Part shown: one piece after another, positions 15,427-37,087 of the stretch
Layout of the letters: each line of letters begins with the position of its first letter
Numbering within the stretch: position 1 is the stretch's first letter
Origin: Stenotrophomonas sp. ATCM1_4
GTDB taxonomy: Bacteria; Pseudomonadota; Gammaproteobacteria; Xanthomonadales; Xanthomonadaceae
DNA length: 64,000 nt
Reading direction: 5' to 3'
NCBI RefSeq assembly: GCF_004348115.1
Contig: NZ_QPFB01000001.1
Coordinates: forward strand, 1,279,978 to 1,343,977
The notes under the pieces: model-generated
What the model was told of the DNA's origin: nothing
What the model saw: only the letters and a program-made list of their open reading frames with translations
The model's database searches: none
Translations under genes and position numbers: made by a program

Positions 15427-15783
15427 TTACAGCGGCATGTTCATCACGTCCTGGTAAGCCTGGACGAGACGGTTGCGGACTTCCACGGTGGCGCGGAACG
15501 CCAGCTGGGACTGTTGGGCGGCGACCATCACCTTGGCCAGGTCGGCGCCGGGCTCACCGCGTTCGAAGGCGGCCGCCAGCTGGCCGGACTTCTGCTGGGT
15601 TTCGTTGACGCTCTTCAGTGCGCCCTGCAGGGTCTGGCTGAACGACGGTGCATTGACGGCGTTGCCCCCGGTCAATCCCTCGATGGCGTTGCTGCGCGGC
15701 AGGTCGCCGGTCGGCGCCACCTGGCCGACCTGGTTCTGCAGGCTGCGGATCTGGGAAAGGACGGAGGTGATGGAGTGGGACAT
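15427..15783 (-). CDS. fliE: Flagellar hook-basal body protein FliE
   Basis: 118 residues from ATG 15783. FliE joins the MS-ring to the proximal rod. The C-terminal half is the conserved part: FSQTLQGALKSVNETQQKSG and VMVAAQQSQLAFRATVEVRN, ending RLVQAYQDVMNMPL. The frame is open further upstream but the sigma-54 element at 15824-15838 fixes the start near 15783. First gene of the fliEFGHIJK operon. Confidence 0.96.
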   Translation of the reverse strand: MSHSITSVLSQIRSLQNQVGQVAPTGDLPRSNAIEGLTGGNAVNAPSFSQTLQGALKSVNETQQKSGQLAAAFERGEPGADLAKVMVAAQQSQLAFRATVEVRNRLVQAYQDVMNMPL

Positions 15784-15823
15784 CGAAACGGGTTCCGGTA
15801 GCAGTCGATCTGCAGGGGAGGTT

Positions 15824-15838
15824 GCAAGTTGCGTGCCG
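15824..15838 (-). promoter_or_regulatory. Sigma-54 promoter of fliEFGHIJK
   Basis: The minus strand reads CGGCACGCAACTTGC, matching the GGCACG-N4-TTGC -24/-12 element, 41 bp before the fliE ATG. Predicted to depend on RpoN and FleQ, both encoded in this window. Confidence 0.87.
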
Positions 15839-16009: not shown

Positions 16010-19000
16010 TCAGGGCAGCCAGGCGTTACGCCATTCCTGCAGGTTCGCCCCCTCCAGCATCCAGTCGCGGTGCACGGCCTCGCGCAACCGAGCACCCGCC
16101 TGCGCGCTGGCAGCGGGGTCGGAGAGATGGTCGCGGATGGCCGCCACCCATTCGCGGTGACGGTTGCGCACGCCGGTGACCGGCAGTGACGGGTCCCGGT
16201 ACGGTCCGACGTCGCTGCACACCACCGGCACGCCGCAGGCACCGTACTCGAGCAGGCGCAGGTTGCTCTTGCAGGTGTTGAAGCGGTTCTCCTCCAGCGG
16301 CGCGATCGCCAGGTCCAGCTGCAGTCCGGCCAGCGCACGCGGGTAGAGACGGATGTCCACGCCGGAATGGAACTCGGCCACGTACGGCAACAGGCGTTCC
16401 GGGCACATGCCGAAGAACACCCAGTCCACGTCCGCGGCAAGTTCGATGACGGCATCGGCGACCAGTTCCAGGTCGCCGGTATGGCCGACACCACCGGCCC
16501 AGCCGACCCGGGGCTTGCCCGGGGCAGGACGCGGCGGATGAGGCAGCGCCGTCCACCATGCAGGTGGCAGCAGGTTGCGTACCACCCGGATATCGGTGTG
16601 CAGGCCGTGCAACGCCTCGGCCAGCTGCGGCGTGGACACCACGCAGCGGTCCACCATTCCCAGCGCCCGGCGCATGCTGCGCAGGACATCCTTGGGCATG
16701 TGCTCGCGATGGATGTTCTTTAGCGGCAGGTTGGGCAGGTAGTCATCGATCTCGTAGACAGTGAAGGCCCGCGAAAAGCGGCGCATGCGCTGGATGCTGG
16801 CCAGGTCCGCGTCGCTGATGCGGCGCTGCAGGATGACCACGTCCGGATCGATGCGCGCCTGTTCGACTGGATCCAGCACGGTGGCGTACAGGACCCCCTC
16901 GGCCAGGCCGGCCTGCTTCAGTGCCTCCAATGGCTGGATCACGCGGTAGTGGCCGCTGCCCCAGGGGTCGGCTGGCTGCGCGAGGAGGCGTGGCAGCGGG
17001 CGCCAGGGCAGGGGCTGCCAGGAGAAATCGGATTCGCCGAGGCGGAAGCCGCCCGGGACGTCCAGGCGCAGGCTGGGGTTGTAGGCCGGATCGTGGGCGA
17101 GTGCGGGCAGCCAGCGCTCCAACAAGGCCGACTCGGCGGGTTCGGGCAACGGCGCGGCCTGGACCGAATGCAGCAGCAGGGCATCGGGCGTCCACACGGT
17201 CAGGTAGCCGCGTTGACGCGCGCGCAGGCACAGGTCCACGTCGGCGCCGTGATCGGCGAAGGTGGCGTGGTCGAAGCCGTCCAGCCCGGCGAACAGCTCC
17301 GCGCCGATCAACAGGCAACTGTCGGACACGGCCGTGTAGTCCTGCGCGACCTGCAGGCGGTGCATGTAGCCCGGCGCGTCCATCGGCATGCCGGCGAAGG
17401 CCCGCCCGCCGCTGCCGAGCAGGCCAGGCACCAGGCCTGCGTGGGTAATGCTGCCATCGGCGGCGATGGTCTTGCCGCCGACGACGCCCACCTCGGGGCG
17501 AAGTGCATGGTTCAGGAGCGCGTCCAGCCAGTGCGGCTGCAACGCGGCCACATCGGCGCGCAGGAACAGCAGGAACGGGCTGCTCGCCTGCCCGGCGGCG
17601 ACATTGCAGGCGGCCGCGTGCGGCAACGGTGGGTCAAAGGCAAAGGCGCGGATGCGACCCCCGGCCAATGGTTCGACCTGCTGCATCCATTGGCTGGCGT
17701 CGGGCCCGGCGCCGTTGTCGATCAACAGCAGCTCGTAGTGCGGGTAGGCGGTCTTCTCCAGCAGGGAGACCACGCAGCGCTCCAGCGACGCCAGCACGGT
17801 GTCGCGGGAAACGACCAGGATCATGGTGACCGGCGGCTGCGCCCGGTGGCCATGGTCGACCCCGTACAGGCCGTTGCCGCGCGGGGTGACCACTGCATCG
17901 GGGTATCCCCGTGCGTGCAGGTGCGCGGTGATGACCTGTTGCCGGGCAGCGTCGTCGGCACGGGGCGGGGCGCAGCTGAGCAGGGGTTCGGGGATATGCG
18001 TGATGCCTTCCAGCCCGCCGTGCTGGACCAGGCGCAGGATCAGGTCGAGTTCGGCTGCAGCACCTGCATCGGCATCCAGCCCGCCGATCGCCAGCGCGGC
18101 ATGCCGGCGGAACAACCAGTGCCCCGCCAACTGCGTCGGGTTTTCCAGCAGCAGGTCCAGGTTGATTCCTGGCCGCAGCGAGGGTGCCAGGTTGTGCTGC
18201 GCATCCACATGCCACTCGTCGCAGTACAAGGCGCGTGCGGGGGCATCATCGTGGGCGAGCGCCGCCAGCAGCCGTCGCAGGCCGGCAACATGGAACTCTG
18301 CACCGGCCTCCACGAACAGCACCCAGTCGGCAGGGCTGGTGCGCAGGGCCTCGTCCAGCGTGGTCCCGGCAGCGAGCCGGCGGTACGCCGGGTCCAGTCC
18401 ATCGGGCGCGTGCCCGGCGCCGAGGATGCAGCGGCAGACCACCTCGGCGGTGCGGGCTTGCAGTGGCAGGCTGCCCAGCGTCCTACGCAGGGCACTGGCC
18501 GGCTGGCCGTCCGCGCGGATCACGATCTCCACGCTGTTGCGTGGAAGCTGCTGCAACGCGGTGTCCAGCGCCTGGCGCTGCGCGGGGTTGAGCTGGCGAC
18601 GTGCCTGCCAGTCGTGCAGCGGCCAGCGTGCCTGCGTGATCAGCAACGCCTGTTCCAGCGCCGAGACCAGGTCCACCTTTTCCGCCGGCCGGTGCCCGTC
18701 GAGCGGTGCAATGGTTACTTGACGGGTGTCGCCGCCGCGATACCAGCCCAGATTGCGCAGCGCCTGGCGGAATGCCTCGTGCCAGTTCTCGGCGACACCG
18801 GGGCGATCCCGTCCGCGCTGGCTGAACTGGTGGCGCGAAATACGGAAGTCGACCAACGGGCGCGCACTGATCGCCACCGGGCCCTGATGCAGCAGTTTGA
18901 CGTACATGGCCACGTCGGCCAGCCAGGCAATGTGGGTGCCGTCGAGCGTGGCCAGCTGCTCGCCCATCGCCAGCAACGGGGCGCGCCGGCACAGCGCGAC

Positions 19001-19522
19001 GCTGGGCTCGCCAAGGAAGTTGAGGGTGTGGTCACCGAAGAAGTCGATCAGGTCGCGGCCGTCGATGCATACGTCATGGTTGGCCGGGAAAGCAGTGGGA
19101 AGCTCATCGGGCAGGGGCATCCCGGCCTCATCGATGAGCCGGCGACGGGTGGTTGCCAGCGCAAGGCCCGGAACGCGCTCGAACGACTCCAGCAGGGTTG
19201 CGATGCAGTCCTCGTGCAGCACGTCGTCATCGTGCAGGAACTTGATGTATTCGCCTTCGGCCAGGCTGATCGCACGCGCGGTGCTGCGCACCTCCCACAG
19301 GCGGGTGGGGTTGCGCGAGTAGCGCACGGGGAAGTCCACCCGTGCAGCGAATGCCTCCACGGCCGTCTGTACGTAACCGGCAGCCGAATCGTCGCAGACC
19401 ACAATCTCCAAGGGGCGATGGGTCTGTCGGCGCACGCTTTCCAGGGCCTGCAGCAGCCAGCGGGCCTTGTAGGCCGGGATCACCACGCTGACCAGCGGAG
19501 CGGGGGAGGGTGGCGGGTTCAT
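16010..19522 (-). CDS. Large three-domain glycosyltransferase (GT2-GT2-GT-B), probable flagellin/glycan glycosyltransferase
   Basis: 1170 residues from ATG 19522, which gives an ATGA overlap with the upstream gene like others in this operon; ATG 19528 is also possible. Domain 1 (about 10-230) is a GT-A fold: VVIPAYKARWLLQALES and a HDDDVLHED metal motif near residue 98. Domain 2 (about 565-790) is a second GT2-like fold: MILVVSRDTVLASLERCVVS, YELLLIDNG, and DVDLCLRARQRGYLTVW, with LFLRADV where DxD would be expected. Domain 3 (about 850-1170) resembles GT-B enzymes: WGSGHYRVIQPLEAL, GWAGGVGHTGDLELV, and a nucleotide-binding-like SNLRLLEYGACGVPVVCSD. No membrane helices or signal peptide, so cytoplasmic. 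It is the last gene of the island, next to fliE. Flagellin or glycan as acceptor is inferred from location only. Confidence 0.85.
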   Translation of the reverse strand: MNPPPSPAPLVSVVIPAYKARWLLQALESVRRQTHRPLEIVVCDDSAAGYVQTAVEAFAARVDFPVRYSRNPTRLWEVRSTARAISLAEGEYIKFLHDDDVLHEDCIATLLESFERVPGLALATTRRRLIDEAGMPLPDELPTAFPANHDVCIDGRDLIDFFGDHTLNFLGEPSVALCRRAPLLAMGEQLATLDGTHIAWLADVAMYVKLLHQGPVAISARPLVDFRISRHQFSQRGRDRPGVAENWHEAFRQALRNLGWYRGGDTRQVTIAPLDGHRPAEKVDLVSALEQALLITQARWPLHDWQARRQLNPAQRQALDTALQQLPRNSVEIVIRADGQPASALRRTLGSLPLQARTAEVVCRCILGAGHAPDGLDPAYRRLAAGTTLDEALRTSPADWVLFVEAGAEFHVAGLRRLLAALAHDDAPARALYCDEWHVDAQHNLAPSLRPGINLDLLLENPTQLAGHWLFRRHAALAIGGLDADAGAAAELDLILRLVQHGGLEGITHIPEPLLSCAPPRADDAARQQVITAHLHARGYPDAVVTPRGNGLYGVDHGHRAQPPVTMILVVSRDTVLASLERCVVSLLEKTAYPHYELLLIDNGAGPDASQWMQQVEPLAGGRIRAFAFDPPLPHAAACNVAAGQASSPFLLFLRADVAALQPHWLDALLNHALRPEVGVVGGKTIAADGSITHAGLVPGLLGSGGRAFAGMPMDAPGYMHRLQVAQDYTAVSDSCLLIGAELFAGLDGFDHATFADHGADVDLCLRARQRGYLTVWTPDALLLHSVQAAPLPEPAESALLERWLPALAHDPAYNPSLRLDVPGGFRLGESDFSWQPLPWRPLPRLLAQPADPWGSGHYRVIQPLEALKQAGLAEGVLYATVLDPVEQARIDPDVVILQRRISDADLASIQRMRRFSRAFTVYEIDDYLPNLPLKNIHREHMPKDVLRSMRRALGMVDRCVVSTPQLAEALHGLHTDIRVVRNLLPPAWWTALPHPPRPAPGKPRVGWAGGVGHTGDLELVADAVIELAADVDWVFFGMCPERLLPYVAEFHSGVDIRLYPRALAGLQLDLAIAPLEENRFNTCKSNLRLLEYGACGVPVVCSDVGPYRDPSLPVTGVRNRHREWVAAIRDHLSDPAASAQAGARLREAVHRDWMLEGANLQEWRNAWLP

Positions 19523-20790
19523 TGGCATCGGGCAGGGCTGTTTGCAGCGATCGCGGCGTGGATCCGTTGCACCACACGGTGGGAGTTGTTGGCATCCAGG
19601 TGCTGGAAGAACAGGCGACGGGCGGTGAGGTAGCGCTCGTCCGGTGGGTGCTGTGGTTGTGCGAGCGCGGCGTCCAGCGCGGTGAGCAGGGCCGGGAAGG
19701 TGGTGGTCATCGGCCCCGGGAACGCCAGCTCCAGGTCGTACAGCAGCCCGTTCTGGCGGGTGCGGTAGTGCTCCAGGTCATAGGCGAAGCCGAGCACCGG
19801 CAGGTCCAGGTAGAGCGCATCGATGTAGACCGACGAGTAGTCGGTGATCACCAGCGCGCTTTCGCGCAGCAGCGGTGCAATTTCCTGGAAGTGCGCGTGG
19901 CCCAGGTCCAGCAGTACATCACCATCGAGATGGCGGGCCGGGTCCAGTGGCGCCGGCGCGTTGACCAGATAGTGGCCGCGCAGGCCGAGCACCGCGTCAT
20001 GGCGGCGCAGTACCTGCTTCAATTGCGTGACCTCGTCATCGCTGAAAAGGTATGCCCGTTCGGTGGCGACGCTGGCATCGCGGTAGGTAGGCGCGTACAG
20101 CACCAGGCGCCGTCCGCCGCGCAGCGCCCGTACCCGGCTGGCTTCCTCGCGCAGGCCAACCGGCAAGGCGTCCTCGGCGATGCGCAGGAAGTCGTTGCGC
20201 GGCAGCCCGGTGACCCAGACATGCGTCGGCGGCAGCGGATGGAAGATGGCCGCCATCGCATAGGCATCGATGGCCGAGGAGGCCACCAGCCCGGTGTAGA
20301 AACGGCGTTCGCGGCGCCGATGCCGGTCGCGGTCGCCGTGCTGGCGCTGGTCCGGGTTGGCCAGTGCGAACAGCCGCTTGAGCGGAATGCCGTGCCAGAG
20401 GTTGATAGTGACGCGCCGGTGCAGCCAGGGCCGAGGCGCAGCGTAGCGACCGTTGCGCCAGGGCAGTGACATGTCCAGGGCGGTGGAGTTGGTCAGCAGC
20501 AACACGCCGCAGCGGGCGAGCGCCCACAGGCCGGCCAGCGAGTCCAGCCGGACCACGCGGACGTGCGCATCATCGTGTACGTCCGGCGGCCGTTGGCCGC
20601 CACGCACAAACACCCGGCAATGGACGCGCGGGTCGTCCTTCACCTGCTCGAAGACCGCGCGCGCGTTCTCGATGAACTGGCCGGGCTTGAGCGGATGGTC
20701 GAAGAATGCCCAGTGATCGCTGCGCTTGGGGACCAGCAGGTCCAGCAGCCGCCACGCCAGCAGCAGCGGCTTCCCCAGCCATGCGGGCAT
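19519..20790 (-). CDS. CDP-glycerol:glycan glycerophosphotransferase-like protein (TagB/TagF family)
   Basis: 423 residues from ATG 20790, 16 bp after the aminotransferase stop (the open frame runs upstream to 20829). The Glyphos_transf family moves glycerol- or ribitol-phosphate from a CDP carrier to an acceptor, classically in Gram-positive wall teichoic acid. Family motifs present in order: NLWHGIPLKRLF, YAPTYRD, RGHYLVN, and VITDYSSVYIDALYLDLPVL near the C-terminus. No transmembrane segments. The partner CDP-glycerol synthase is encoded at 27320-27772 in the same island. The acceptor is unknown; flagellin glycan is inferred from context. Confidence 0.85.
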   Translation of the reverse strand: MPAWLGKPLLLAWRLLDLLVPKRSDHWAFFDHPLKPGQFIENARAVFEQVKDDPRVHCRVFVRGGQRPPDVHDDAHVRVVRLDSLAGLWALARCGVLLLTNSTALDMSLPWRNGRYAAPRPWLHRRVTINLWHGIPLKRLFALANPDQRQHGDRDRHRRRERRFYTGLVASSAIDAYAMAAIFHPLPPTHVWVTGLPRNDFLRIAEDALPVGLREEASRVRALRGGRRLVLYAPTYRDASVATERAYLFSDDEVTQLKQVLRRHDAVLGLRGHYLVNAPAPLDPARHLDGDVLLDLGHAHFQEIAPLLRESALVITDYSSVYIDALYLDLPVLGFAYDLEHYRTRQNGLLYDLELAFPGPMTTTFPALLTALDAALAQPQHPPDERYLTARRLFFQHLDANNSHRVVQRIHAAIAANSPARCQ

Positions 20791-20806
20791 CACGGCCAAG
20801 CTTCCA

Positions 20807-21937
20807 TCACGCGGCGCGGACCCGCGCATGTGCGGTCAGCAGGTCGCAGATCCGGTCCACCTCGGCGTCCGGGAGGTCCGGGTGGATCGGCAGGCACAGC
20901 ACCTGGCGGGCGGCGGTGTGCGCCACCGGCAGGTTGTCCGGCGCCGCGGACGGAAAGCCGCGGTACATCGGGAACTCGCTGATCAGCGGGTAGAAGTAGC
21001 GTCGTACCAGGATGTTCTCGGCACGCAGCAGGTGGTACAGCTCGTCGCGCTGCAACGGGTAGTCGTCGCCGACCAGCACCGGGAAGTAGGCGTGGTTGTG
21101 ACGCACGTCCGATGGCCGGGACAGGCATTTCATGCCGGCGATCCCCGCCAGGCGCTGACGGTACAGCGCATCGATGGCCGCGCGTCGTTCCAGCGCCCGG
21201 TCGATGTGCTTGAGCTGGAGCAGGCCGAACGCGGCGCTGACCTCGTTCATCTTGCCGTTGATGCCGGGCGCCACCACGGTGGTCTCGTTGACGAAGCCGA
21301 AGTTCTTCAGGTGATCGATGCGCTGCTTGGTGCGGGCATCCGGGCAGATGATGGCGCCGCCTTCGAAGGTGTTGAACACCTTGGTGGCATGGAAGCTGAG
21401 CACCGACAGGTCGCCGTGCCGCAGCACGCTGCCACGGGTATCGCCGACGGCGAAGGCATGCGCGGCGTCGTAGATCACGCGCAGGTTGTAGTTGTCGGCG
21501 ATGCGGCCGATGGCATCCACGTCACAGGGCGTGCCGTAGCAATGCACCGGCATGATGGCAGTGGTCTGCGGCGTGATCGCCGCCTCGATCCGGGCCGGAT
21601 CCAGGTTGAAGGTGACCGGGTCCACGTCCACGAACACCGGCTTGATGCCGTTCCACAGCAGCGAATGGCCGGTGGCCACGAACGAATACGGGGTGGTGAT
21701 CACCTCGCCGGTGATGCGCAGTGACTGCAGCGCGGTGACCAGCGCCAGCGTGCCATTGGCGAACAGGGCGATGTGCTCGACCCCGAGGTAGGCGCACAGG
21801 GCCTTTTCCAGCGCCTGGTGCATGCTGCCCCCGTTGGTCAGGATGCGGCTTTCCCAGATCCGTTCCAGGTAGGGAACGAATTCCTCCAGCGGGGGCAGCA
21901 GGGGGCTGGTGACCGGGATTGGCTTCTTGGTCGTCAT
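20807..21937 (-). CDS. DegT/DnrJ/EryC1/StrS aminotransferase (nucleotide-sugar 4-aminotransferase, VioA/FdtB-like)
   Basis: 376 residues from ATG 21937. PLP-dependent transaminase acting on a keto sugar nucleotide. Seen: the N-terminal PVTSPLLPPLEEFVPYLERI, LFANGTLALVTALQSL, the active-site Lys in SFHATKVFNTFEGG (near residue 183), and the aromatic YFPVLVGDDYP segment. The N-terminus resembles dTDP-4-keto-6-deoxyglucose aminotransferases such as VioA, so a dTDP-4-amino-4,6-dideoxyhexose is a plausible product; the specificity is not proven. rmlA/rmlB needed for the precursor are not in the window. It has its own sigma-54 element at 21991-22005. Confidence 0.88.
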   Translation of the reverse strand: MTTKKPIPVTSPLLPPLEEFVPYLERIWESRILTNGGSMHQALEKALCAYLGVEHIALFANGTLALVTALQSLRITGEVITTPYSFVATGHSLLWNGIKPVFVDVDPVTFNLDPARIEAAITPQTTAIMPVHCYGTPCDVDAIGRIADNYNLRVIYDAAHAFAVGDTRGSVLRHGDLSVLSFHATKVFNTFEGGAIICPDARTKQRIDHLKNFGFVNETTVVAPGINGKMNEVSAAFGLLQLKHIDRALERRAAIDALYRQRLAGIAGMKCLSRPSDVRHNHAYFPVLVGDDYPLQRDELYHLLRAENILVRRYFYPLISEFPMYRGFPSAAPDNLPVAHTAARQVLCLPIHPDLPDAEVDRICDLLTAHARVRAA

Positions 21938-21990
21938 CGCAGGCGGGCCCGGGGGCATGGCTTCGGCGGATTGCCGGCGAGCAGGGACAT

Positions 21991-22005
21991 GCAACTCCCG
22001 TGCCT
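21991..22005 (-). promoter_or_regulatory. Sigma-54 promoter inside the glycan island (upstream of the aminotransferase)
   Basis: The minus strand reads AGGCACGGGAGTTGC, a GGCACG-N4-TTGC element in the 84-bp gap before the aminotransferase ATG (54 bp away). It would drive the aminotransferase, the TagB-like gene and the large glycosyltransferase. Confidence 0.78.
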
Positions 22006-22021
22006 GCGGGGGCGGCGCCGG

Positions 22022-23536
22022 TCAGTTGACGGCCAGTCCCATGCCACCGGCCTCGGCCGAGAACAGCAGGCTGCCCAGCGACGAGCGCAACGGGAGCGAG
22101 GCAGGCCATCCGGGCGGCACCATCGCCGGGCCGATCCGGTAGCGGCCATGGATGCCGTCAGCGGTGCGATAGTGCAGGACCAGCCCGTACAGATTGCCGG
22201 GCTTCCAGTCCGGCGCCCGCATGTCCAGCCGATAGCGCCAGCGGTGCTCGGCGGTCCTGCCTTCGGGCTGGAACGCCCAACTGCCTTCGCCCTGGATCGC
22301 ATGCAGCTCGAACCAGACCTGGCAACCGGCCATGATCCGGTCGTGCAGGTCCAGGGTCAGGTCCAGGCTGTCCTCGTCCAGCGAGATGTCCCGGAGGCGG
22401 AAGAAGCCGATGTTCGGGAACTCCAGGCGCATCGCGCTACGCGGCAGGGCGATCTCCGGGTTGTCCAGGAAGGGTTGCTTCCAATAGCAGGCACCCTCGA
22501 TTTCCGCGATCCAGCCCCGTTCGCTGGTCACGCCGAGCAGGAAGCACAGGGCTTCGACCTCGCCGCGCCTGATCAGCTCCAGGTAAAGGCAGCGCCTGGC
22601 ACCGAGCGCCCTGCAGTCCAGCTCGCCATACAGCGCGAGTAGTTCTTGCATCTGCGCGATGAACACCTTGCGAAAGCTCGGAGACGCCACGATGCCAGGC
22701 GCGGCGTGCAGGGCACGCTGCAGGTTGGCCACGGCGATCGCGCGCCGGTAGCCGGCCGCTGCGGGAACGTCATCGAAATCATGCCACTCCAGCTTCATCG
22801 AGCGGATGCGGTCGATGAAGTTGTCGGCCTGGCGGATGTTCTGGGAAATGGACGCAATGGCGCCCTCGGGGCGCCGGCGCCAGTGGTACACCAGGTCCGG
22901 GATGATCACCGTGCGCTGGCTGTACCAGTACGCGCGGTGGACGAACGGGCGGTCCGCGTAGAGCAGGCCCGGGACCATGCCCAACCCGTTCTCCCGCAGG
23001 AAATCGGTACGGAATACCTTGTTCCAGTAGAAGCAGTCGTGGATGACGTCGGGGAATCCGTCCACCGAGTCGAAGCTGCGGCGCCGCGACCAGACATACG
23101 GCTCATACAGGAATGCCACCGACGAGAGCTTGCCGTCCTGCAGCCGCGCCGCCCGGCCGATGACGATGTCGGCGTCGGCCTGCACGGCCTGTTCCATCAG
23201 CAGGCGGTACCCATCGCCGGTGACCACGTCATCGGAGTCAACCAGCGCCACGTAACGACCACGCGCCAGCGACACGCCGAGGTTGCCTGAAACCGCGCCA
23301 CCTTCGTTGTGTTTGCTGATGCAGCGGAAGTTCGGGTGGCGCGCCTCGTATTCCCGGCAGATCGCGAGGCTGTCGTCGGAGCTGGCATCATCGATGGCGA
23401 TGACCTCGATGTTGCGATAGTCCTGTTCCAGCAGCGAATCAAGGCACTCCCGCAGGAACGGGGCGGTGTTGTAGACCAGCACCACGATCGACAGCAGCGG
23501 AGCCGCGTCGGGGCCGGGCAGCGCGGGCTGGGTCAT
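22022..23536 (-). CDS. Family 2 glycosyltransferase with C-terminal accessory domain
   Basis: 504 residues from ATG 23536, overlapping the preceding stop by 4 bp (ATGA). The N-terminal GT-A domain (about 14-240) has LSIVVLVYNTAPFLRECLDS, EVIAIDDASSDDSLAI, and the metal-binding ALVDSDDVVTGDG. Residues about 330-504 form a beta-rich extension (FFRLRDISLDEDSLDLTLDL, YGLVLHYRTADGI) that I do not recognise; similar tails occur in TagF-associated and capsule transferases. Cytoplasmic. Donor and acceptor unknown. Confidence 0.85.
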   Translation of the reverse strand: MTQPALPGPDAAPLLSIVVLVYNTAPFLRECLDSLLEQDYRNIEVIAIDDASSDDSLAICREYEARHPNFRCISKHNEGGAVSGNLGVSLARGRYVALVDSDDVVTGDGYRLLMEQAVQADADIVIGRAARLQDGKLSSVAFLYEPYVWSRRRSFDSVDGFPDVIHDCFYWNKVFRTDFLRENGLGMVPGLLYADRPFVHRAYWYSQRTVIIPDLVYHWRRRPEGAIASISQNIRQADNFIDRIRSMKLEWHDFDDVPAAAGYRRAIAVANLQRALHAAPGIVASPSFRKVFIAQMQELLALYGELDCRALGARRCLYLELIRRGEVEALCFLLGVTSERGWIAEIEGACYWKQPFLDNPEIALPRSAMRLEFPNIGFFRLRDISLDEDSLDLTLDLHDRIMAGCQVWFELHAIQGEGSWAFQPEGRTAEHRWRYRLDMRAPDWKPGNLYGLVLHYRTADGIHGRYRIGPAMVPPGWPASLPLRSSLGSLLFSAEAGGMGLAVN

Positions 23537-24813
23537 GCACGAACCTCCCTCAGCTGCTCCACTGCATCCACATCGAATACCGGGATGCCACGCGTGGAAG
23601 CCACGTCGGCGCGCTCGCGGTAGGCATCGTCGATGAAGATGGCGGATTCGCCTGGCGGGATCACGGCGCTCTTGGGCGAGCCATCGCGCAGGTGCACGAT
23701 CCGCTCGAACAAGTCCGCGCAGATGCGATGCCGTGCGAGCGTCCGCACCGGCTCGGTGGCGTGCCGGGTCACCAGCACCACCGGGATTCCCCGCGTGTTC
23801 CATTGGTACAGCAGCGCCATCACCTGCGGCTCCGGCGCACCCCGCACCAGCAGGGTGTCGTCCAGGTCCAGGTAGACACGCTCATAGGCCAGCTTCGCCC
23901 GCCAGCGGTTGCCGAGCGCGCGGTCCATGACCAACGGGTAGTGCTGGGGCATGACCGTGAAGGGCTTTCCCAGGTAGGCGTAGATGCCCAGCAACGGATA
24001 ATTGATGCCACGCATGCGGTTCAATGCCATCGAGCCGGCGATGCGGGGGGCGACTTCCAGCAGCTTGGGCACGCCGTGCCGGTCACGTCGGGCCTGGAAG
24101 AACCAGGCGCCCTTCAGGCGCAGTTCCGCAGCGATGGCCAGTGCCATCGCCTCCAGCTCGGGGTCCGTGGCCACCGGCTCGGTGCGCACGCTGATCCCGG
24201 ATTTGACCCGCCCGCGTACCCGCGCAGCGGCATGCAGCAGGGTGCCGTCGGCGGTGGAGATGCAGTCCACGGTGTACTCGGTGCCGGGCAGGTATTCGCT
24301 GAACACGTACTCGATGCCACTGCCGGCCAGCCGCCGATGGCGTTCGTCGTTGTCCACCCGCTCGGCGCCCTGGCTGCCCTGGCCGACTGCCGGCTTGGCG
24401 AAGATCGGGTAGTCGGCGCTGCCCAGTTCGACGCGGCGCGGCACGATGCCCAAGCCCTGCAACCGCCCGTAGGTCAGGTTCTTGTTGCGGCAGATCGCGG
24501 CCATGGCCGGCTCGGGCACCATCGCCGGGGCATGCAGCCGCTGCTGGTTGTCGGCGAGCACGGGGATCACGCTGTCATGCGCCGGCACCACCAGATCGAT
24601 GCTCCATGCATCGATCAGTGCGTTGAGCTGGGAAACCAGCTCGGCCGAGTCGGCCTGTGCGGTGATCTGGCGGTACCGCGCATAGACGAACTCGCCATGG
24701 TCCGAGACCGACGAAGCACCGTGCAGGCAGACGTCCTTGGCATGGCGCAGGGCGGCATGGATCTCCAGGCCGATCTCCGAGCCACAGGGGAAGACCAGCA
24801 CGTTCACCGTCAT
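23533..24813 (-). CDS. ATP-grasp ligase fused to a HAD-like phosphatase domain
   Basis: 426 residues from ATG 24813, with 4-bp overlaps on both sides. Residues 1-95 are a Rossmann-like pre-ATP-grasp part (MTVNVLVFPCGSEIG). Residues about 95-290 are an ATP-grasp domain like carbamoyl-phosphate synthase or biotin carboxylase: YPIFAKPAVGQGSQGAERV, SEYLPGTEYTVDC, KLLEVAPRIAGS. Residues about 300-426 are a HAD domain with nucleophile motif YLDLDDTLLV and acidic motif AIFIDDAYRERADV. The ATP-grasp half would join an acid (amino acid or similar) to an amine or phosphate; the HAD half would remove a phosphate. The pair may build and unload an unusual acyl substituent for the glycan; the substrate is not visible in the sequence. 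Confidence 0.8.
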   Translation of the reverse strand: MTVNVLVFPCGSEIGLEIHAALRHAKDVCLHGASSVSDHGEFVYARYRQITAQADSAELVSQLNALIDAWSIDLVVPAHDSVIPVLADNQQRLHAPAMVPEPAMAAICRNKNLTYGRLQGLGIVPRRVELGSADYPIFAKPAVGQGSQGAERVDNDERHRRLAGSGIEYVFSEYLPGTEYTVDCISTADGTLLHAAARVRGRVKSGISVRTEPVATDPELEAMALAIAAELRLKGAWFFQARRDRHGVPKLLEVAPRIAGSMALNRMRGINYPLLGIYAYLGKPFTVMPQHYPLVMDRALGNRWRAKLAYERVYLDLDDTLLVRGAPEPQVMALLYQWNTRGIPVVLVTRHATEPVRTLARHRICADLFERIVHLRDGSPKSAVIPPGESAIFIDDAYRERADVASTRGIPVFDVDAVEQLREVRA

Positions 24814-27320
24814 GCCCGCGGGTCCTCGCAGGGCTGGGCCAGCAGGACGGCTTCCCAGCCCTGTGGCAACTGCACCCACTTGAAGTTGAAGCGGTAGGGG
24901 ATGCCGAGTCCGGCAATGAAGCGGGGGATGGTCAGCACGTCGTCCCACTTGTGGTACAGGCACAGCGCCAGCTTGGGGCGGAACCGGCGGATGGTCTGCA
25001 CGGCCCCCAGCAGCGCGGGGATCTCCGATCCCTCGATGTCCATCTTGATCAGGTCCACGCGCTGCAGCCCGTGCTGGGCGACATAGTCGTCCAGGGTGAT
25101 GGTGGCGATGCGTTCGCCCGGGCCGTCCCCGGCACCGACCGATGTGGCACCTTGCAGCCTGGCCTGCCTGATCAGCAGCGAGCCATCGCTGTGGTCGGAC
25201 AACGCCCGCTTGTTGAGCACGACCCGGTCGGCCACGCCGTTGAGGTGCAGGTTGTGCTCGAACAGGGCGATGTTCTCGTCCAGCAGCTCGAAGGCGTGCA
25301 CCTGGCAATCGTTGCCGGTCTTGGCGCAGAACAGGACGGCGGTGTCGCCGATGAACCCGCCGGCATCGATGATGACCTCGCCCGGGCGGACGCGGAAATC
25401 CTCACTCTGGTACTGGTCGAACAGGATGTCGTGGATGCTCAATGCCCACGCATAGCTGGCCAGGCGGAAGTCATGGCCCTGCGGGCGAAGGTCCTGCAGC
25501 ACGTACTGGCCGTCACCGATGGTGATCGGCGGGCGGGGCTCGGCGCGGATACGATCGACCTCGGCGAGGTAGTGCGCCAGTTCCCCCGGGGCAACGCGGT
25601 CGATGCCGGCCCAGCGCTTGAGGAACCAGACCAGGAAGCGCTCCTGCTCGGGGGGGCTCAGCCGCTCGTACAGCAGCGTCGAGATCGCCTCGGCGTCCGC
25701 CAGATAGCGTTGAATCAGGCCTCGCAGGCGCGCATCGTCTTCCGCCGGGCCGTTGCCAGCCAGTGCCACCAGGTCGGACAGGAACCGGCTGCGTGACGGG
25801 AACGGTCCGAAGAACGCATCGACGACGCGCTCGGCGGCGCTGCCGTCGTTGAGCGCGCAGAAGCGCTCCCGGAAGGCCGCGTAGCGGTCCGCGTGGGTAG
25901 CCTGGACGGCGGGCAGGTCCGCCAACAAGGCCACCAGCTCCTCGGTGCTGCGTGCGATTGGCCCGGGCAGGTCCTGGGCCATGTCCAGGTAGAAGCCGCG
26001 GACCTGTTCGGCGTAATGCTCCAGGTCGTAGCAATAGAACAGGATCGGCCGGCCAGTGGTGGCGTAGTCGAAGAAGATCGAGGAGTAGTCGGTGATCAGC
26101 ACGTCGGCGATCGCGCACAGCTCGCTGGCATCGTCCACCTGCGATACATCGCGCACATTGGCCGGAAGCGTCAGTTCCTGCAGCCCCGTGCTGACCAGGT
26201 GGTGGCCGCGCAGCAGCAGGATCTCGTCCGGAGCCAGGGCCGCGGCGACCTTCACCAGATCCAGTTGCAGGTCGAAGTCGAACTGCCAATGCCCGACCTG
26301 CTGGCTGTCGCGCCAGGTGGGGGCATACAGCACGAAGCGATGACCGGAGGGCAGCGCGAGCCGGGCGAGGGTGTCCTCCCGTGGGCTGACCGGGGCTACC
26401 AGTGGATCGGCCACGGGGTAGCCGGCTTCCAGGATCGGGCCGTCGTAACGGAAGGCCCTCCGGAGCACATCGCTGGAATAGCGGTTCTCGCTCAACAGCA
26501 ATGTCCAGGCACGGGATTCGCGGTACAGGTTGTCGCGTGCCTCCACTTCCGGCCCGGTCACCGTGATGTCGTAGCCCAGCCGCTTCAACGGCGTGCCGTG
26601 CCAGGTCTGCAGGTAGCGTGTCTGCGGCTTGCGCCCGTGCGCGGTGAACAGGATGTTGTTGACACGGTACTTGGCCTGCGCGAGCAGGCGGAGGTATTCG
26701 GCGGAGCCGCGGATCACCCGCTGCGGGTTTCCCGGGATCTGCTCGTCTCCGTTGTAGGCCCAGACGCAGCGCAGGTCCGGGCGCATCCGGCGCAGTGCCT
26801 CGTAGATGTAGCGCGGGTTGCCGGCGTATGCCCTGCCGAAGAAGCTCTCGAACAGGACCAGGTCCTCCTGCAAGGGCAGTTGTTCGAGCAGGGAGGGAAA
26901 TGCAGCGCGCAGGTTCTCCGCTTCGACGGTCATCGCGTGCTGCTCCAGCGGCGCGGTGAACAAGGCCAGCGAGCTGGCGCTGTCGCTCAGGTAGGCCGAC
27001 AGCCCATGGGCCTGCACGGCATCACAAAAAAAGTGGCGGTCCGCGCCATCAGCGGTGATTCCGACCAACTGCTGGAACTGACCCGTATTGCCTACTTCGA
27101 TCTGCACATCCCAGCGCTGGGGGGTATCTTCCAGCAGTGCCGGGCCGGGCAAGCGCGAGCGCGCGGCATCGCCTTCGAGCAGGATGTCCAGCGGCACGCA
27201 GCGCTTGCCGTCACGGCGGCGCAGGCGAAGGGCACTGATGCCACGCGGGGCCGGCTGCAGGTGAAGCCACAGGTCGCGGCCCTCGCCGGCAAGGGCGTGG
27301 ATATGGAAGACAGGCAGCAT
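24810..27320 (-). CDS. Fusion of CDP-glycerol glycerophosphotransferase and FkbM-type methyltransferase
   Basis: 836 residues from ATG 27320, which shares one base with the tagD stop. Residues 1 to about 130 are an unrecognised beta-rich region. About 135-490 is a Glyphos_transf domain: QTWHGTPLKRLGYD, LYAPTWRDS, RGHHLVSTG, LITDYSSIFFDYATTGRPIL. About 600-836 is a SAM-dependent FkbM methyltransferase: VIIDAGGFIGDTAVLF (SAM loop), LIKMDIEGSEIPALL. FkbM enzymes methylate sugar or glycerate hydroxyls. The fusion suggests glycerol-phosphate transfer followed by O-methyl capping of the product, perhaps to stop chain growth. No membrane segment is visible. Confidence 0.86.
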   Translation of the reverse strand: MLPVFHIHALAGEGRDLWLHLQPAPRGISALRLRRRDGKRCVPLDILLEGDAARSRLPGPALLEDTPQRWDVQIEVGNTGQFQQLVGITADGADRHFFCDAVQAHGLSAYLSDSASSLALFTAPLEQHAMTVEAENLRAAFPSLLEQLPLQEDLVLFESFFGRAYAGNPRYIYEALRRMRPDLRCVWAYNGDEQIPGNPQRVIRGSAEYLRLLAQAKYRVNNILFTAHGRKPQTRYLQTWHGTPLKRLGYDITVTGPEVEARDNLYRESRAWTLLLSENRYSSDVLRRAFRYDGPILEAGYPVADPLVAPVSPREDTLARLALPSGHRFVLYAPTWRDSQQVGHWQFDFDLQLDLVKVAAALAPDEILLLRGHHLVSTGLQELTLPANVRDVSQVDDASELCAIADVLITDYSSIFFDYATTGRPILFYCYDLEHYAEQVRGFYLDMAQDLPGPIARSTEELVALLADLPAVQATHADRYAAFRERFCALNDGSAAERVVDAFFGPFPSRSRFLSDLVALAGNGPAEDDARLRGLIQRYLADAEAISTLLYERLSPPEQERFLVWFLKRWAGIDRVAPGELAHYLAEVDRIRAEPRPPITIGDGQYVLQDLRPQGHDFRLASYAWALSIHDILFDQYQSEDFRVRPGEVIIDAGGFIGDTAVLFCAKTGNDCQVHAFELLDENIALFEHNLHLNGVADRVVLNKRALSDHSDGSLLIRQARLQGATSVGAGDGPGERIATITLDDYVAQHGLQRVDLIKMDIEGSEIPALLGAVQTIRRFRPKLALCLYHKWDDVLTIPRFIAGLGIPYRFNFKWVQLPQGWEAVLLAQPCEDPRA

Positions 27321-27772
27321 CAGCGCACTCCGGCGAGCAGGGCAGTGGCCTGCGGTGCATTGTCGGCAGGTGGTGGGTCCAAGCCATGCAGGCGGATGCG
27401 TGCCTTGAGGGCGGAGCTGGAGATGTCCTCGGTGCGCGGCAGATAGCGGACCTGGCAATGGCGGGCCAGCGCATCGAAGTGCCCGGTCCAGTCCGAGCCC
27501 ATCACCAGGATGTCCGCGCCGTAACGCTGGATGTCGATGGCCTTCTGCTCCCAACTGTCCTCGGGGAAGACATCGTCGACATAGCGGATCGCGCGCAGCA
27601 CGGCCTCGCGGTCGGCGTAGCACTGGGTTGCGGTCTTTCGCTTGATGGCGTTGAACCGGTCCGAGGACAGGCCGACCAGCAAGTGGTCGCCCAGTTCCCG
27701 GGCACGACGCAACAGGTTCACGTGCCCCACGTGCAGAAGATCGAACGTCCCGTAGGTCAGAACAAGCGCCAT
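27320..27772 (-). CDS. tagD: Glycerol-3-phosphate cytidylyltransferase (TagD-like)
   Basis: 150 residues. It makes CDP-glycerol from CTP and glycerol 3-phosphate, the donor for glycerophosphotransferases. Cytidylyltransferase signatures are intact: TYGTFDLLHVGHVNLLRRA with HxGH at 14-17, and RTEDISSSALKARI matching the family RTEGISTT motif. Residues after about 135 are a short unconserved tail. It heads a tightly overlapping run of genes (1-bp, then 4-bp overlaps) and is preceded by a sigma-54 element at 27812-27826. Unusual in a Gram-negative flagellar locus. Confidence 0.92.
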   Translation of the reverse strand: MALVLTYGTFDLLHVGHVNLLRRARELGDHLLVGLSSDRFNAIKRKTATQCYADREAVLRAIRYVDDVFPEDSWEQKAIDIQRYGADILVMGSDWTGHFDALARHCQVRYLPRTEDISSSALKARIRLHGLDPPPADNAPQATALLAGVR

Positions 27773-27811
27773 GATGTGCGATTCCAGACGGCCATGATTG
27801 CCTTGTGACAG

Positions 27812-27826
27812 GCAAGATCCGTGCCG
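27812..27826 (-). promoter_or_regulatory. Sigma-54 promoter upstream of tagD
   Basis: The minus strand reads CGGCACGGATCTTGC, a full GGCACG-N4-TTGC element in the 60-bp gap before tagD, 40 bp from its ATG. It predicts that the CDP-glycerol operon is switched on with the flagellar middle genes. Confidence 0.85.
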
Positions 27827-27832
27827 TGGGCG

Positions 27833-28537
27833 TCAATCGCGGGTGGCGTTCCAGTAGGCAGAGCGGGGGACGCTGTCCCCATCGGGCTTGTAGGGCGGCT
27901 GCGCCATTGAAAGGTGCGGACGTTCCCAGGCGACGTCGCGACGCACCACCCGTGCCGGTGTACCCACGGCCACGCAGTTGTTCGGGATGGGCCCGGTGAC
28001 CACGCTGTCCATGCCGATCACGCTGCCATCGCCGATCCGCGCGCCGCCCAGGCAGCATACTCCGAACGCCAGCCAGACATGGGCGCCGATGACGATGTCC
28101 TCGACCGGGTTGATGCGCTGGCCGGTGTGGATATCGAAGATGGGGTGGGCATCGTCACCGCGCAGCTGTACTTCCGAGGCCAGCATGCAGTCGTCCCCCA
28201 CCGTCACCCGGCCGCCTTCGCTGGTGGCGATGAAGGTCCGCGCCGTGGTGGTTACCCCGGCACCGATGGTGATGACGCAATCCTCACCGAGGCGGATGAG
28301 CGCGGACAAGCTGCCGGCGGGGCCGGCGGCGCCGATCCGGCAGTGTGCATTGGAGCCGTGGAACTCGACGGCGGTGTTCACCAGGCGCGCACGCGGGTCG
28401 ATTTCCAGCGTGCAGTTGTGGCCTTTGAACACGGTGGTCAGGCTGTTCAGCCCGACCGGCGCGATGACGCGGTTGCCACGTTCATCGCGCAGCTCACTGC
28501 GTTCGGGCGCGGCGAGTGTTGCTTGCCTGGAATCCAT
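27833..28537 (-). CDS. Left-handed beta-helix (hexapeptide) acyltransferase
   Basis: 234 residues from ATG 28537 (GTG 28540 is directly before it and also possible). The repeats from about 60 to 205 show the [LIV]-G-x4 hexapeptide pattern: LGEDCVITIGAGVTT, VTVGDDCMLASEV, IVIGAHVWLAFGVCCL, ARIGDGSVIGMDSVVTGPIP, ending in NCVAVGTPARVVRR. These enzymes transfer acetyl or other acyl groups from CoA to sugars. It begins 5 bp after the fleQ stop, so it is probably transcribed with fleQ. A role in acylating the amino sugar made by the island aminotransferase is likely but inferred. Confidence 0.87.
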   Translation of the reverse strand: MDSRQATLAAPERSELRDERGNRVIAPVGLNSLTTVFKGHNCTLEIDPRARLVNTAVEFHGSNAHCRIGAAGPAGSLSALIRLGEDCVITIGAGVTTTARTFIATSEGGRVTVGDDCMLASEVQLRGDDAHPIFDIHTGQRINPVEDIVIGAHVWLAFGVCCLGGARIGDGSVIGMDSVVTGPIPNNCVAVGTPARVVRRDVAWERPHLSMAQPPYKPDGDSVPRSAYWNATRD

Positions 28538-28542: not shown

Positions 28543-30000
28543 TCAGTCTGCTACCTGTTCCCGCTCGATCCCGTACTTGCGCAGCTTCTCCACCAGGGTG
28601 GTGCGGCGCAGGCCCAGCAGTTGGGCGGCATGGGCGACCACGCCCTGGGTGCGTTCCAGCGCCTCGTTGATCAGGGTCAGCTCGATGCCGGTCATGTGGT
28701 CGCGCAGGTCCAGCCCCTCGCTGGGCAGGCTGGCCGGCTTGAACGCCGCCGCCTTGGCCTGCGTGGCGGTCGGCGCACGGGCTGCCGCCAGCACCGCCTG
28801 TACCGCCGGCTCATCGACCGGGTTGGCCGAGGCCGCCATGTTGCCGTCGCCGCGGTAGCGGCTGGGCAGGTCCTGCACGCGCACCAGCCCGCCCGGGTGC
28901 AGGACGGCCAGGCGCTCGACCAGGTTGGTCAGTTCGCGCACGTTGCCCGGCCAGGGATAACCGGCCAGCGCCAGCAGGGCCTCGTCGGCGAAGCGGACTT
29001 CGCCGCGGCCGGTGCGGGCCAGCTGGGCCGCGATGGTCTGCACCAGTGCCGGGATGTCGGCGGTACGCTCGCGCAACGCGGGCACGTCGATCGGGAACAC
29101 GTTCAGGCGGTAGAACAGGTCCTCGCGGAACTTGCCTTCGTTGATGCGCGTTTCCAGGTCACGGTGGGTCGCGGCGATCACCCGCACATTGCAGCGGATG
29201 GTCTGGTTGCCACCGACACGCTCGAAGCTGCGCTCCTGAAGCACGCGCAGCAGCTTGACTTGCATCGGCAGGCTCATGTCGCCGATCTCGTCCAGCAGCA
29301 GGGTGCCACCCTCGGCCATCTCGAAGCGGCCCTTGCGCGCGGTCAGCGCACCGGTGAAGGCGCCTTTCTCATGGCCGAACAGCTCGCTTTCGAGCAGGTC
29401 CGGCGGGATCGCGCCGCAGTTGATCGCCACGAACGGCCCATCACGGCGCGGTGAGCGCTGGTGGATGGAGCGCGAGACCACTTCCTTGCCGGTACCCGAT
29501 TCGCCCAGCACCAACACGGTGGTGTCGAAGTTGGCGACCTGCTCGATCAGCTGGCGCAGCTCGGTCACGGCCGGGCTGGTGCCGGTCGGGCCGTTGTCGT
29601 CGATGGCGCTGGACTGGTGCTCGGTGTCCAGCCGCTTGAGGCTGGCACGGCGCAGCAGGGCTTCCACCTGCGCCAGGCGCATCGGCTGCTCCAGCGGCCA
29701 GACATTGGCTTCGTGCAGGCCGTAGTGGCGCGAGAACGCCAGCGGGTCACCTTCGCCCAGCAGGACCGGCGGCGGCAGCGGCGCGGCGGCCAGCCAGTTG
29801 AAGAAGCCGGCGGCCAGATCGGCGTCTTCCAGCGTGCCGACCACCACGGCCATCCAGTCATTGCTGCGGTGGCGGCTGGTGTCGATGTCCTGCGCGTCGC
29901 TGACCCAGCGCGGGGTGAAGTCCATGAACTCCAGCAGGGACAGGGTCCGCTCGGCGCGAACCGCGTCGGCATCGATGACGAGGATGCGTGACTCACTCAT
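28543..30000 (-). CDS. fleQ: Sigma-54-dependent flagellar master regulator FleQ
   Basis: 485 residues from ATG 30000. Bacterial enhancer-binding protein that activates RpoN-dependent flagellar promoters, and in Pseudomonas also binds c-di-GMP. The N-terminal receiver-like domain (1-120) lacks a normal phospho-Asp site, as in FleQ. The AAA+ domain (about 145-370) has Walker A GESGTGKE, the sigma-54 contact loop GAFTGA in [17 protein letters not shown], and Walker [12 protein letters not shown]. The C-terminal Fis-type helix-turn-helix contains [20 protein letters not shown]. It sits between rpoN and the glycan island and overlaps the preceding receiver gene by 8 bp. Confidence 0.95.
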
Positions 30001-30386: not shown

Positions 30387-31796
30387 TCAGCCCGCGCGGG
30401 CCAGCAGCGGCTTGGTGCCCTGGCGGCGGCGATCGCGTGCCGGGGCGATGTCGAGTTGTTCGCGATATTTTGCGACGGTACGACGTGCGATGTTTACCCC
30501 CTGGCGCGAGAGCAGGCCCGCGATGGCCTCGTCGGCCAGCGGCCGGCCGGCCGGCTCGGCGTCGATCAGGCGCTTGACCATGGCCTTGACCGCCTGCCCG
30601 GAGACGCTGGCGCCCTCCAGGCGGACGGCGAAGAAATGCTTCAGTTCGAAGGTGCCGCGCGGCGTCTGCAGGTACTTGCCGGAAGTGATGCGCGAGACTG
30701 TGGACTCGTGCATGCCGATGCTGTCGGCCACTTCCTTCAGGGTCAGTGGCGCCATTGCCTCATCGCCCTGGACCAGGAACGCGGCCTGGCGCTCGACGAT
30801 CACCCGGGCGGTGCGGATCAGGGTGTCGTAGCGCATGGACAGGCCGCGGGTCAGCCAGCGGGCTTCCTGCAGCATGTCGCGCAAGGGCTGCGCGGCCTCG
30901 CTGCCGTTGTCGGCCAGGGCGCGTTCGTAGCCGGCGTTGATGGCGATGCGCGGGGTGGTGGCGGGGTTCAGCGCGACGCGCCATTGCCCGTCCGCGTGCC
31001 AGGCCACCACGTCGGGGAGGATGGCCTCGTCCTGCTGCGGCTGCAGGCTGTCCCCCGGCCGCGGTTGCAGCGACAGGATCAGCCGGAACGCCTCGAGGAC
31101 GTCGTCCTGCTCGGCATCGAGTGCAACGGCCAGGGCGGCGTAGTCATGGTTGGCCAGCAGTTGCAGGTCGGCATCGAGCAGGCGCGCGGCCAGGTGGCGC
31201 GCCGGCACCACGCCGGGCAGCGCTGCCAACTGTGCCAGCAGGCACTCGCGCAGGTCGGTCGCCGCCATGCCGGCCGGCTCGCCGTGCAGCAGGCGCTGGC
31301 GCACGGCTTCCACGTCGCTGGCGGTGCGGTCCAGGCGCGCACTGGCCAGGCGGGTCAGCTCGGCCAGGGCGCCCTGCAGGTAGCCGGCGTCATCGCAGTG
31401 CTCCAGCCAGAAGCTGGCGATGGCCAGGTCGGATGCGTCCAGCTCCAGGGCCAGTGCATTGAGCACGCGCAGCTGCGGGTCGGTGGACTCGCCGGCGGCG
31501 ATGCGCGCCATGCGGTCATCCTCACCGTCATTCCAGCCGCCGCCGGCCACGTCCCACATCGAGCTCTCCGGCAGTTCGTCGAACGCGGCCGTTTCCACCT
31601 GCGCGTCGTTGCCATTGGCCGTGGCCGGGCTCTCTTCCTGCTCGTCCTGCAGCTCCAGCAACGGATTGCTTTCCAGCGCCTGGCGGACTTCCAGCTCCAG
31701 CTGCATGCCATTGAGCTGCAACAGGCGGATCGACTGCAGCAGGGCAGGCGTGAGGTGGAGCTGCTGGCCCAACTGGGCAGAGAGTGTGGCTTTCAT
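30387..31796 (-). CDS. rpoN: RNA polymerase sigma-54 factor (flagellar paralogue likely)
   Basis: 469 residues from ATG 31796. Region I (MKATLSAQLGQQLHLTPALLQSIRLLQL, activator-interacting, first residues) is followed by an acidic region II, the core-binding domain, the helix-turn-helix TLKEVADSIGMHESTVSRI and the RpoN box ARRTVAKYRE near 437-446, which reads the -24 GG. Xanthomonads often carry a second rpoN in the flagellar cluster; this is probably that copy, so another may exist outside the window. The sigma-54 elements found in front of eight genes here are its expected targets. Confidence 0.95.
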   Translation of the reverse strand: MKATLSAQLGQQLHLTPALLQSIRLLQLNGMQLELEVRQALESNPLLELQDEQEESPATANGNDAQVETAAFDELPESSMWDVAGGGWNDGEDDRMARIAAGESTDPQLRVLNALALELDASDLAIASFWLEHCDDAGYLQGALAELTRLASARLDRTASDVEAVRQRLLHGEPAGMAATDLRECLLAQLAALPGVVPARHLAARLLDADLQLLANHDYAALAVALDAEQDDVLEAFRLILSLQPRPGDSLQPQQDEAILPDVVAWHADGQWRVALNPATTPRIAINAGYERALADNGSEAAQPLRDMLQEARWLTRGLSMRYDTLIRTARVIVERQAAFLVQGDEAMAPLTLKEVADSIGMHESTVSRITSGKYLQTPRGTFELKHFFAVRLEGASVSGQAVKAMVKRLIDAEPAGRPLADEAIAGLLSRQGVNIARRTVAKYREQLDIAPARDRRRQGTKPLLARAG

Positions 31797-36986: not shown

Positions 36987-37087
36987 GATTCGGATTCCTT
37001 TTTGGCGTTTGATCCGGCAGCTCAACCTGACCGGTACTGGATGCAGTGGGGGTGGCGTAGGGCGCCGCAGTACCGCTGCTGATATCA

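Follow-up and report, generated by a model that had tools for sequence, protein, structure and literature searches.

A gene island between fleQ and fliE of Stenotrophomonas sp. ATCM1_4 that probably glycosylates flagellin with an amino sugar and glycerol phosphate

A 64,000-nucleotide stretch of the Stenotrophomonas sp. ATCM1_4 genome (contig NZ_QPFB01000001.1), called the window here, contains a block of eight minus-strand genes at 16010-28537, between the flagellar genes fleQ and fliE. Every frame of this block is open. The block is probably a viosamine-type flagellin glycosylation island, in which acylation from acyl carrier protein (acyl-ACP) is replaced by the action of an ATP-grasp ligase, and in which glycerol phosphate is added from cytidine diphosphate (CDP)-glycerol. 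From the gene content we infer the following substrates, products and order of steps, with flagellin as the acceptor. A VioA-like enzyme would aminate deoxythymidine diphosphate (dTDP)-4-keto-6-deoxyglucose, formed via RmlB, to a dTDP-4-amino-4,6-dideoxysugar. A fusion protein would then act: its ATP-grasp domain would link the 4-amino group with a carboxylic acid, and its HAD domain would strip phosphate from the acid or the product. In the cytoplasm, a large glycosyltransferase and a GT2 glycosyltransferase would assemble the glycan on flagellin Ser/Thr residues. CDP-glycerol would come from TagD, and two TagF-like enzymes would use it to attach glycerol phosphate to the glycan through a phosphodiester; FkbM methylation and hexapeptide acylation would decorate the glycan further. 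The island would be transcribed together with the flagellum through RpoN/FleQ. A more specific version is proposed only tentatively. The island may be a mobile cassette of Lysobacteraceae, Pseudomonadaceae and two betaproteobacterial families, whose ATP-grasp/HAD protein acylates the 4-amino-4,6-dideoxysugar with a hydroxy acid that accepts glycerol phosphate, giving a phosphodiester-bearing flagellin. The hydroxy acid would be, for example, glycerate from a phosphorylated precursor, and glycerol phosphate might be added as short teichoic-like chains.

Genes of the island

All genes named in a preliminary description of this block, made from the sequence alone, do lie between fleQ and fliE on the minus strand. 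The genes were described as largely overlapping; four of the nine junctions from fleQ to fliE do overlap, by 1-10 bases, but gaps of 60 bp and 84 bp precede tagD and the aminotransferase gene (degT, or vioA), and each gap contains a sigma-54-like site.

Teichoic-acid genes of the TagD/TagB/TagF kind are used by Gram-positive bacteria. The tagD gene of the island, for a probable glycerol-3-phosphate cytidylyltransferase that would make CDP-glycerol, lies at 27320..27772 (CTP_transf_like 78.9 bits; TIGR01518 158.7 bits). The closest solved structure to its product is that of B. subtilis TagD (1coz, 145.8 bits), whereas an ethanolamine-phosphate enzyme reaches only 69.6 bits, and the TagD family residues are kept and invariant in 12 aligned rows. 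The product of the gene at 24810..27320 is a fusion of a TagF-like glycerophosphotransferase (PF04464, 324.6 bits; 263.4 bits against the TagF structure 3l7i) with an FkbM methyltransferase (PF05050, 60.2 bits), and is termed glycerophosphotransferase 1. Glycerophosphotransferase 2 is encoded at 19519..20790 (PF04464, 154.9 bits), and a six-sequence profile of it matches 3l7i with 72.9 bits. The WHG and RxH histidines of both enzymes align with TagF; those of glycerophosphotransferase 2, in WHG and RxHYL, align with TagF residues 444 and 584, which are presumably catalytic. The only TagD match in the genome lies inside the island, as do the two strong ones of the three Glyphos_transf matches, the third being weak (25.5 bits). 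The undecaprenyl primer proteins TagO/TagA and the exporter TagGH are not detected by Pfam among the eight island genes, to which this search was confined. The counterpart of glycerophosphotransferase 1 in a Pseudoxanthomonas locus (L028, 6956-10846) is a 1296-residue protein with TPR repeats, a Glyphos_transf domain and a GT4 domain, and its gene adjoins a TylF-type methyltransferase gene. This variant suggests that cassette parts are swapped between species.

Another CDP-alcohol or a CDP-amino acid may be used instead of CDP-glycerol, giving a type-A-like phospho-modification of flagellin as proposed for C. difficile. The TagF-like, nucleotidyltransferase, methyltransferase and phosphoserine-phosphatase-like proteins of that bacterium resemble TagD, Glyphos_transf, FkbM and HAD of the island (PMC10714395). 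However, the island protein is nearest to true TagD by the structural comparison, with invariant residues, and this explanation is considered unlikely.

The VioA-like sugar 4-aminotransferase of the DegT family (377 residues; 20807..21937; PF01041, 327.8 bits) has as its closest solved structure 2po3 (233.6 bits), a sugar 4-aminotransferase type with '4-dehydrase' in its entry name, which we take to be DesI. Its sugar-nucleotide precursor can probably be made, because a strong RmlB match (512 bits) is present elsewhere in the genome. The fusion of an ATP-grasp ligase with a HAD phosphatase-like half is encoded at 23533..24813 (PF15632, 78.5 bits). The HAD half has no Pfam match and is assigned by its DxDD motif, of which D315 and D317 are invariant over 21 rows. 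When the predicted model of the whole fusion (predicted local distance difference test score, pLDDT, 92.3) is compared with known folds, the top matches are the carbamoyl-phosphate-synthase-like 2pn1, PylC and L-amino acid ligases. A GT2 glycosyltransferase is encoded at 22022..23536 (PF00535, 107.6 bits). The large glycosyltransferase, a VioT/FGT-like multi-domain protein of 1172 residues (16010..19528), shows two PF00535 stretches and thus at least two GT2-type domains; a GT-B-like C-terminal part is suggested by Pfam matches that are all below the cut-off. The top folds for its predicted model (pLDDT 86.6) are K4 chondroitin polymerase, heparosan synthase and GalNAc transferases, a likeness to two-domain GT-A polymerases and to GalNAc transferases. 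The eighth gene (27833..28537) is for a WbbJ-like hexapeptide-repeat acyltransferase, which scores slightly below the Pfam cut-off (Hexapep, 25.3 bits against 27) and far below that of NCBIfam WbbJ (64.3 against 243). No 3-oxoacyl-ACP synthase is found by Pfam among the island genes, so that the vio-type acyl-ACP module (vioS, acp, vioR, vioB) is not present in this form.

Flagellar location, carriers and exchange of modules

The island is bordered by fleQ, for a sigma-54 activator (28543..30000; PF00158 245.8 bits, FleQ family PF06490 54.6 bits; putative start at MSESR), and on the opposite side by fliE (15427..15783; PF02049, 95.7 bits). Beyond fleQ lie the gene of an rpoN-type sigma-54 factor (30387..31907; PF04552, 191 bits) and then fliS, fliD, the two flagellin genes whose products are the proposed substrates (35754..38476; Flagellin_N, 162.2 bits each), an FlgL-type gene and an FlgK-type gene, all in the flagellar cluster and, where coordinates are given, on the minus strand. 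The G+C content of the island (66-71%) does not contrast with that of its flanks and therefore gives no support to a recent acquisition from a donor of low G+C. A reading as a defence system was rejected, PADLOC models giving no match for four island proteins. Elsewhere in the window, a DarT-like open reading frame of 176 codons (PF14487, 31 bits) at 4475-5005 on the plus strand adjoins fliP in the lowest-GC kilobase (56%); it is perhaps a small toxin gene inserted into the flagellar cluster.

The site was compared among 66 loci from genomes of the window's family, Lysobacteraceae, a sample enriched for inserts because 26 of them were taken for a glycosyltransferase or glycerophosphotransferase match. 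Both fleQ and fliE are measurable in 57 loci, and the interval between them is 4-18 kb in 20 and shorter than 2.1 kb in 37. Thus, the fleQ-fliE interval is an insertion hotspot in relatives. The large glycosyltransferase lies inside 19 of the 20 long intervals, the exception being G188, in which the copy adjoins fliD. The preliminary description proposed a search for the gene set at this site in related genomes, and TagD is indeed found in the interval of five other family genomes (G010, G044, G104, G186 and G188, the contig of G104 stopping before fliE). A different pair of TagD and Glyphos_transf genes, away from flagellar markers, is present in five loci of other family genomes (L031, L033, L034, L036 and L040) and perhaps serves surface polysaccharide.

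A scan of named genomes with glycerophosphotransferase 2 gives 32 loci. Flagellar genes are present in 13 of the 14 loci with 47-72% identity, the remaining one being a 6.6-kb contig. They are not seen in the 18 loci with 23-29% identity, searched with probes from the window's own genome, which divergent genes may escape. The carriers include Stenotrophomonas, Pseudoxanthomonas, Xanthomonas sp. AmX2, Pseudomonas, Stutzerimonas, Thiopseudomonas, Comamonas and an Azoarcus metagenome-assembled genome. The cassette has the same gene order upstream of fliC in Pseudomonadaceae as between fleQ and fliE in Lysobacteraceae. For example, the order in L165 is fliC, large glycosyltransferase, glycerophosphotransferase 2, DegT, GT2, ATP-grasp-HAD, glycerophosphotransferase 1, TagD and hexapeptide transferase, as in the window. 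This recurrence in other genera and families indicates that the block is more than a chance assembly. The large glycosyltransferase is found in 100 of 248 Pseudomonadaceae genomes, and glycerophosphotransferase 2 in 11, in 10 of which it adjoins the large glycosyltransferase or lies no more than 2 kb away. When the regions of 40 of these 100 genomes were examined, glycerophosphotransferase 2 was found in nine, and fliC adjoins the large glycosyltransferase in eight of the nine. In Thiopseudomonas (L117/L183), the large glycosyltransferase and fliC are accompanied by TagD and glycerophosphotransferase 2. In a 24-row glycerophosphotransferase tree, the eight Lysobacteraceae copies group together (99/100), apart from eight of the Pseudomonadaceae copies (92/88), and three non-flagellar outgroup rows separate from the 21 cassette-type rows. 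As to individual copies, the glycerophosphotransferase 2 match in G568 has one internal stop codon, and a 40% relative lies at C1:4295570-4296625 of G740, a Pseudomonadaceae genome without a match to the large glycosyltransferase.

The known and the putative acylation genes replace each other among these loci. Eighty loci were examined, of which 46 pass a VioA filter (50% identity, more than 200 bits); removal of six duplicates and addition of the window give 41 distinct vioA loci. ATP-grasp-HAD is present in 23 of them, 3-oxoacyl-ACP synthase III in 12, neither in six and both in none, and a recheck of the 34 loci dropped by the filter likewise finds none with both. The tagD gene is present in 17 of the 41 loci, all 17 of which have ATP-grasp-HAD. 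A locus with the other module (L047, from the Xanthomonas group, the genus of G186) runs from a VioA-like gene through genes for 3-oxoacyl-ACP synthase III, hexapeptide transferases, a Rieske oxygenase and FkbM to a large glycosyltransferase gene adjoining fliE. This swap suggests, but does not prove, that ATP-grasp-HAD is an N-acylation module for the amino sugar, which is a good guess at its role.

These comparisons also bear on whether the island makes lipopolysaccharide (LPS), capsule or another surface polymer, its place among flagellar genes being accidental. TagD occurs with Glyphos_transf away from flagellar markers in relatives (L031, L033, L034 and L036), and a putative CDP-glycerol glycerophosphotransferase is among the LPS genes of Xanthomonas hortorum linked to phage susceptibility (PMC12573098). 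However, the cassette occupies two independent flagellar sites and has sigma-54-like sites in common with fliE, none of its eight genes is assigned by Pfam to a family for polymer export, flippase, polymerase or carrier priming, and the non-flagellar glycerophosphotransferases (the three outgroup rows) group apart from the 21 cassette-type rows. An LPS or capsule locus is therefore improbable. A decaying or silent cassette that makes no glycan is very improbable, since, although the cassette is missing in all six own-genus genomes with a measurable fleQ-fliE gap (279-1796 bp; two more are cut by contig ends), its eight frames are open, its catalytic motifs are kept and its genes are common to distant genera.

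Sigma-54-like sites and assessment of the proposed function

Sites with GG-N10-GC and at least nine of 11 consensus bases were taken as sigma-54-like. Such sites are present on the minus strand of the window upstream of tagD (27811..27826, CGGCACGGATCTTGCC), upstream of vioA (21990..22005, AGGCACGGGAGTTGCA) and upstream of fliE (15823..15838, CGGCACGCAACTTGCA). Eight Lysobacteraceae cassettes were compared, L119 being left out for its frameshifts and L109-L112 and L118 being records already used. The sites are found at tagD in seven of the eight, at vioA in all eight and at fliE in all seven loci showing fliE, but at only one of 38 other island gene starts, where gene starts are those of tblastn matches and distances are approximate. 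Random 170-bp windows reach this score in 3.2% of cases. The operon heads tagD and vioA thus appear to carry conserved sigma-54 promoter-like sites, which fits the RpoN/FleQ flagellar regulon. Control by sigma-28 was also considered and rejected: the window has no match to its pattern at up to two mismatches, 1.69 being expected by chance.

Flagellin as the probable target of the cassette is well supported, because the cassette is placed beside fliC or between fleQ and fliE, its operon heads have sigma-54-like sites, and the genome has no other TagD or strong Glyphos_transf. It also counts in favour of the proposed island that FliE is present in 28 of the 29 family genomes, out of 198, that have the large glycosyltransferase, against 82 of the 169 others. 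Homology to TagD, TagF and VioA/DesI makes glycerol phosphate and a 4-amino sugar the likeliest chemistry, and the flagellin glycan likely bears glycerol phosphate. The preliminary description had suggested a flagellin glycan with glycerol phosphate, a 4-amino sugar, O-methyl and acyl groups; the comparison of genomes upholds flagellin as its target, and homology upholds the first two as its likeliest constituents; the O-methyl and acyl groups are no more than plausible.

Several points weigh against a flagellin glycosylation island of this type. Its chemistry is read from genes, and no product has been seen. TagD scores 6.7 bits below the curated TIGR01518 cut-off (165.4), the score of the TarF model is far below its cut-off, and the top NCBIfam match of the VioA-like enzyme, the DesI model, reaches 296.8 bits, well below its cut-off of 650. 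TagB/TagF enzymes classically work on membrane-bound lipid carriers. TagD matches occur in 20 of 198 family genomes, 14 of which are outside the fleQ-fliE group (elsewhere or unexamined), so that TagD also serves other clusters. The Fisher values of the comparisons ignore shared ancestry. The modules are not always together: L117/L183, among the 34 dropped loci, have tagD without ATP-grasp-HAD, neither the latter nor a VioA-like gene being found in the fetched stretch. The ATP-grasp match of L062 is weak (29%), with its HAD part unmatched. The sigma-54-like sites of seven Pseudomonadaceae cassettes are weaker (vioA four of seven, tagD one of five), and the 42 sites of the whole window are no excess over the 40.5 expected by chance.

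If the more specific, tentative version of the proposal is correct, ATP-grasp-HAD would stand in for the acyl-ACP module as a novel type of N-acylation module for sugar nucleotides, and the filament would gain a negatively charged coat. Flagellin glycans influence motility, phage adsorption and host recognition. That acyl-ACP and ATP-grasp-HAD modules exclude each other may point to an enzyme for building modified amino sugars. Under the proposal, each glycerol phosphate should add 154.003 Da to flagellin, an increment that should vanish without tagD, and the cassette has named, partly sequenced carriers, such as Pseudoxanthomonas sp. J31 and Stutzerimonas stutzeri 24a13.

Comparison with known systems

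For enterobacterial flag-2, gene content has led to the proposal of teichoic-type chemistry on the flagellum of Gram-negative bacteria. TagD is present in 235 and TagB in 65 flag-2 loci, whose authors propose teichoic-like glycopolymers on flagellin (PMC6993521). WecE transaminase, FkbM methyltransferases and WbbJ acetyltransferase lie in the same variable region; taken over all strains, flag-2 variable region 1 resembles the island in having TagD, TagB, transaminase, FkbM and WbbJ-type genes within a flagellar locus. This likeness is one of gene families. Unlike the flagellum of the window, flag-2 is a lateral-type secondary flagellum of Enterobacterales, and neither ATP-grasp-HAD nor a 1172-residue glycosyltransferase is named in the available text (PMC6993521).

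The viosamine island of P. syringae has a vioA aminotransferase of 372 residues and a vioT of 1,173 residues, which the aminotransferase (377) and large glycosyltransferase (1172) of the window match in size and type (PMC3927599). In P. syringae, 3-hydroxybutyryl acylation is carried out with vioS, vioB, vioR and acp (PMC3927599), whereas the window has ATP-grasp-HAD, tagD and the glycerophosphotransferases instead. P. syringae itself is compared by published description, and the likeness rests on these sizes and on homology to a Pseudomonadaceae locus (L175) with the order glutamine synthetase, vioA-like gene (67%), methyltransferase and VioT-like gene (38%). L175 corresponds to a viosamine island only in part: a LacI regulator and a dehydrogenase follow the VioT-like gene, and no vioS-, vioB- or acp-like matches are found there.

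In Xanthomonas, the flagellin glycosylation genes gigX1-10 lie in the flagellar cluster and are regulated by RpoN2/FleQ (PMC8657755); they would be situated at fleQ-fliE. The fleQ-fliE interval of X. campestris pv. vesicatoria contains genes for an aminotransferase, ACP, 3-oxoacyl-ACP synthase, dehydrogenases and a glycosyltransferase adjoining fliE, and, unlike that of the window, no TagD or glycerophosphotransferase is listed for it in the portion available (PMC3826837).

In the type A flagellin glycan of C. difficile, the TagF-like CD0244 is needed for a phosphodiester-linked group on the flagellin sugar, and, as in the window, this TagF-like protein has cytidylyltransferase, methyltransferase and HAD-type partners (PMC10714395). 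The group differs in being N-methyl-phosphothreonine, not glycerol phosphate, and a VioA-like gene is not named in that text. The flagellin glycosylation island of Geobacillus thermoglucosidans includes tagD, as in the window, but paired with a phosphatidylglycerophosphate synthase gene, for which its authors suggest a phospholipid derivative (PMC5109656). The b-type flagellin of P. aeruginosa carries a phosphate-containing group of 209 Da (PMC3958885). Searches of an open-access library gave no measured glycerol phosphate on flagellin and no demonstrated teichoic-type chemistry on a Gram-negative flagellum.

The earlier statement that no described system has this gene set therefore fails in part as a claim of novelty, given TagD/TagB in flag-2 (PMC6993521) and the TagF-like protein of C. 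difficile (PMC10714395). Since related blocks adjoin flagellin genes in other bacterial families, the island appears to be a mobile variant within a known class of flagellin glycosylation islands. The general idea is already in print for other flagella, and the cassette of the window is a new, wider-spread variant of it with a testable mass signature.

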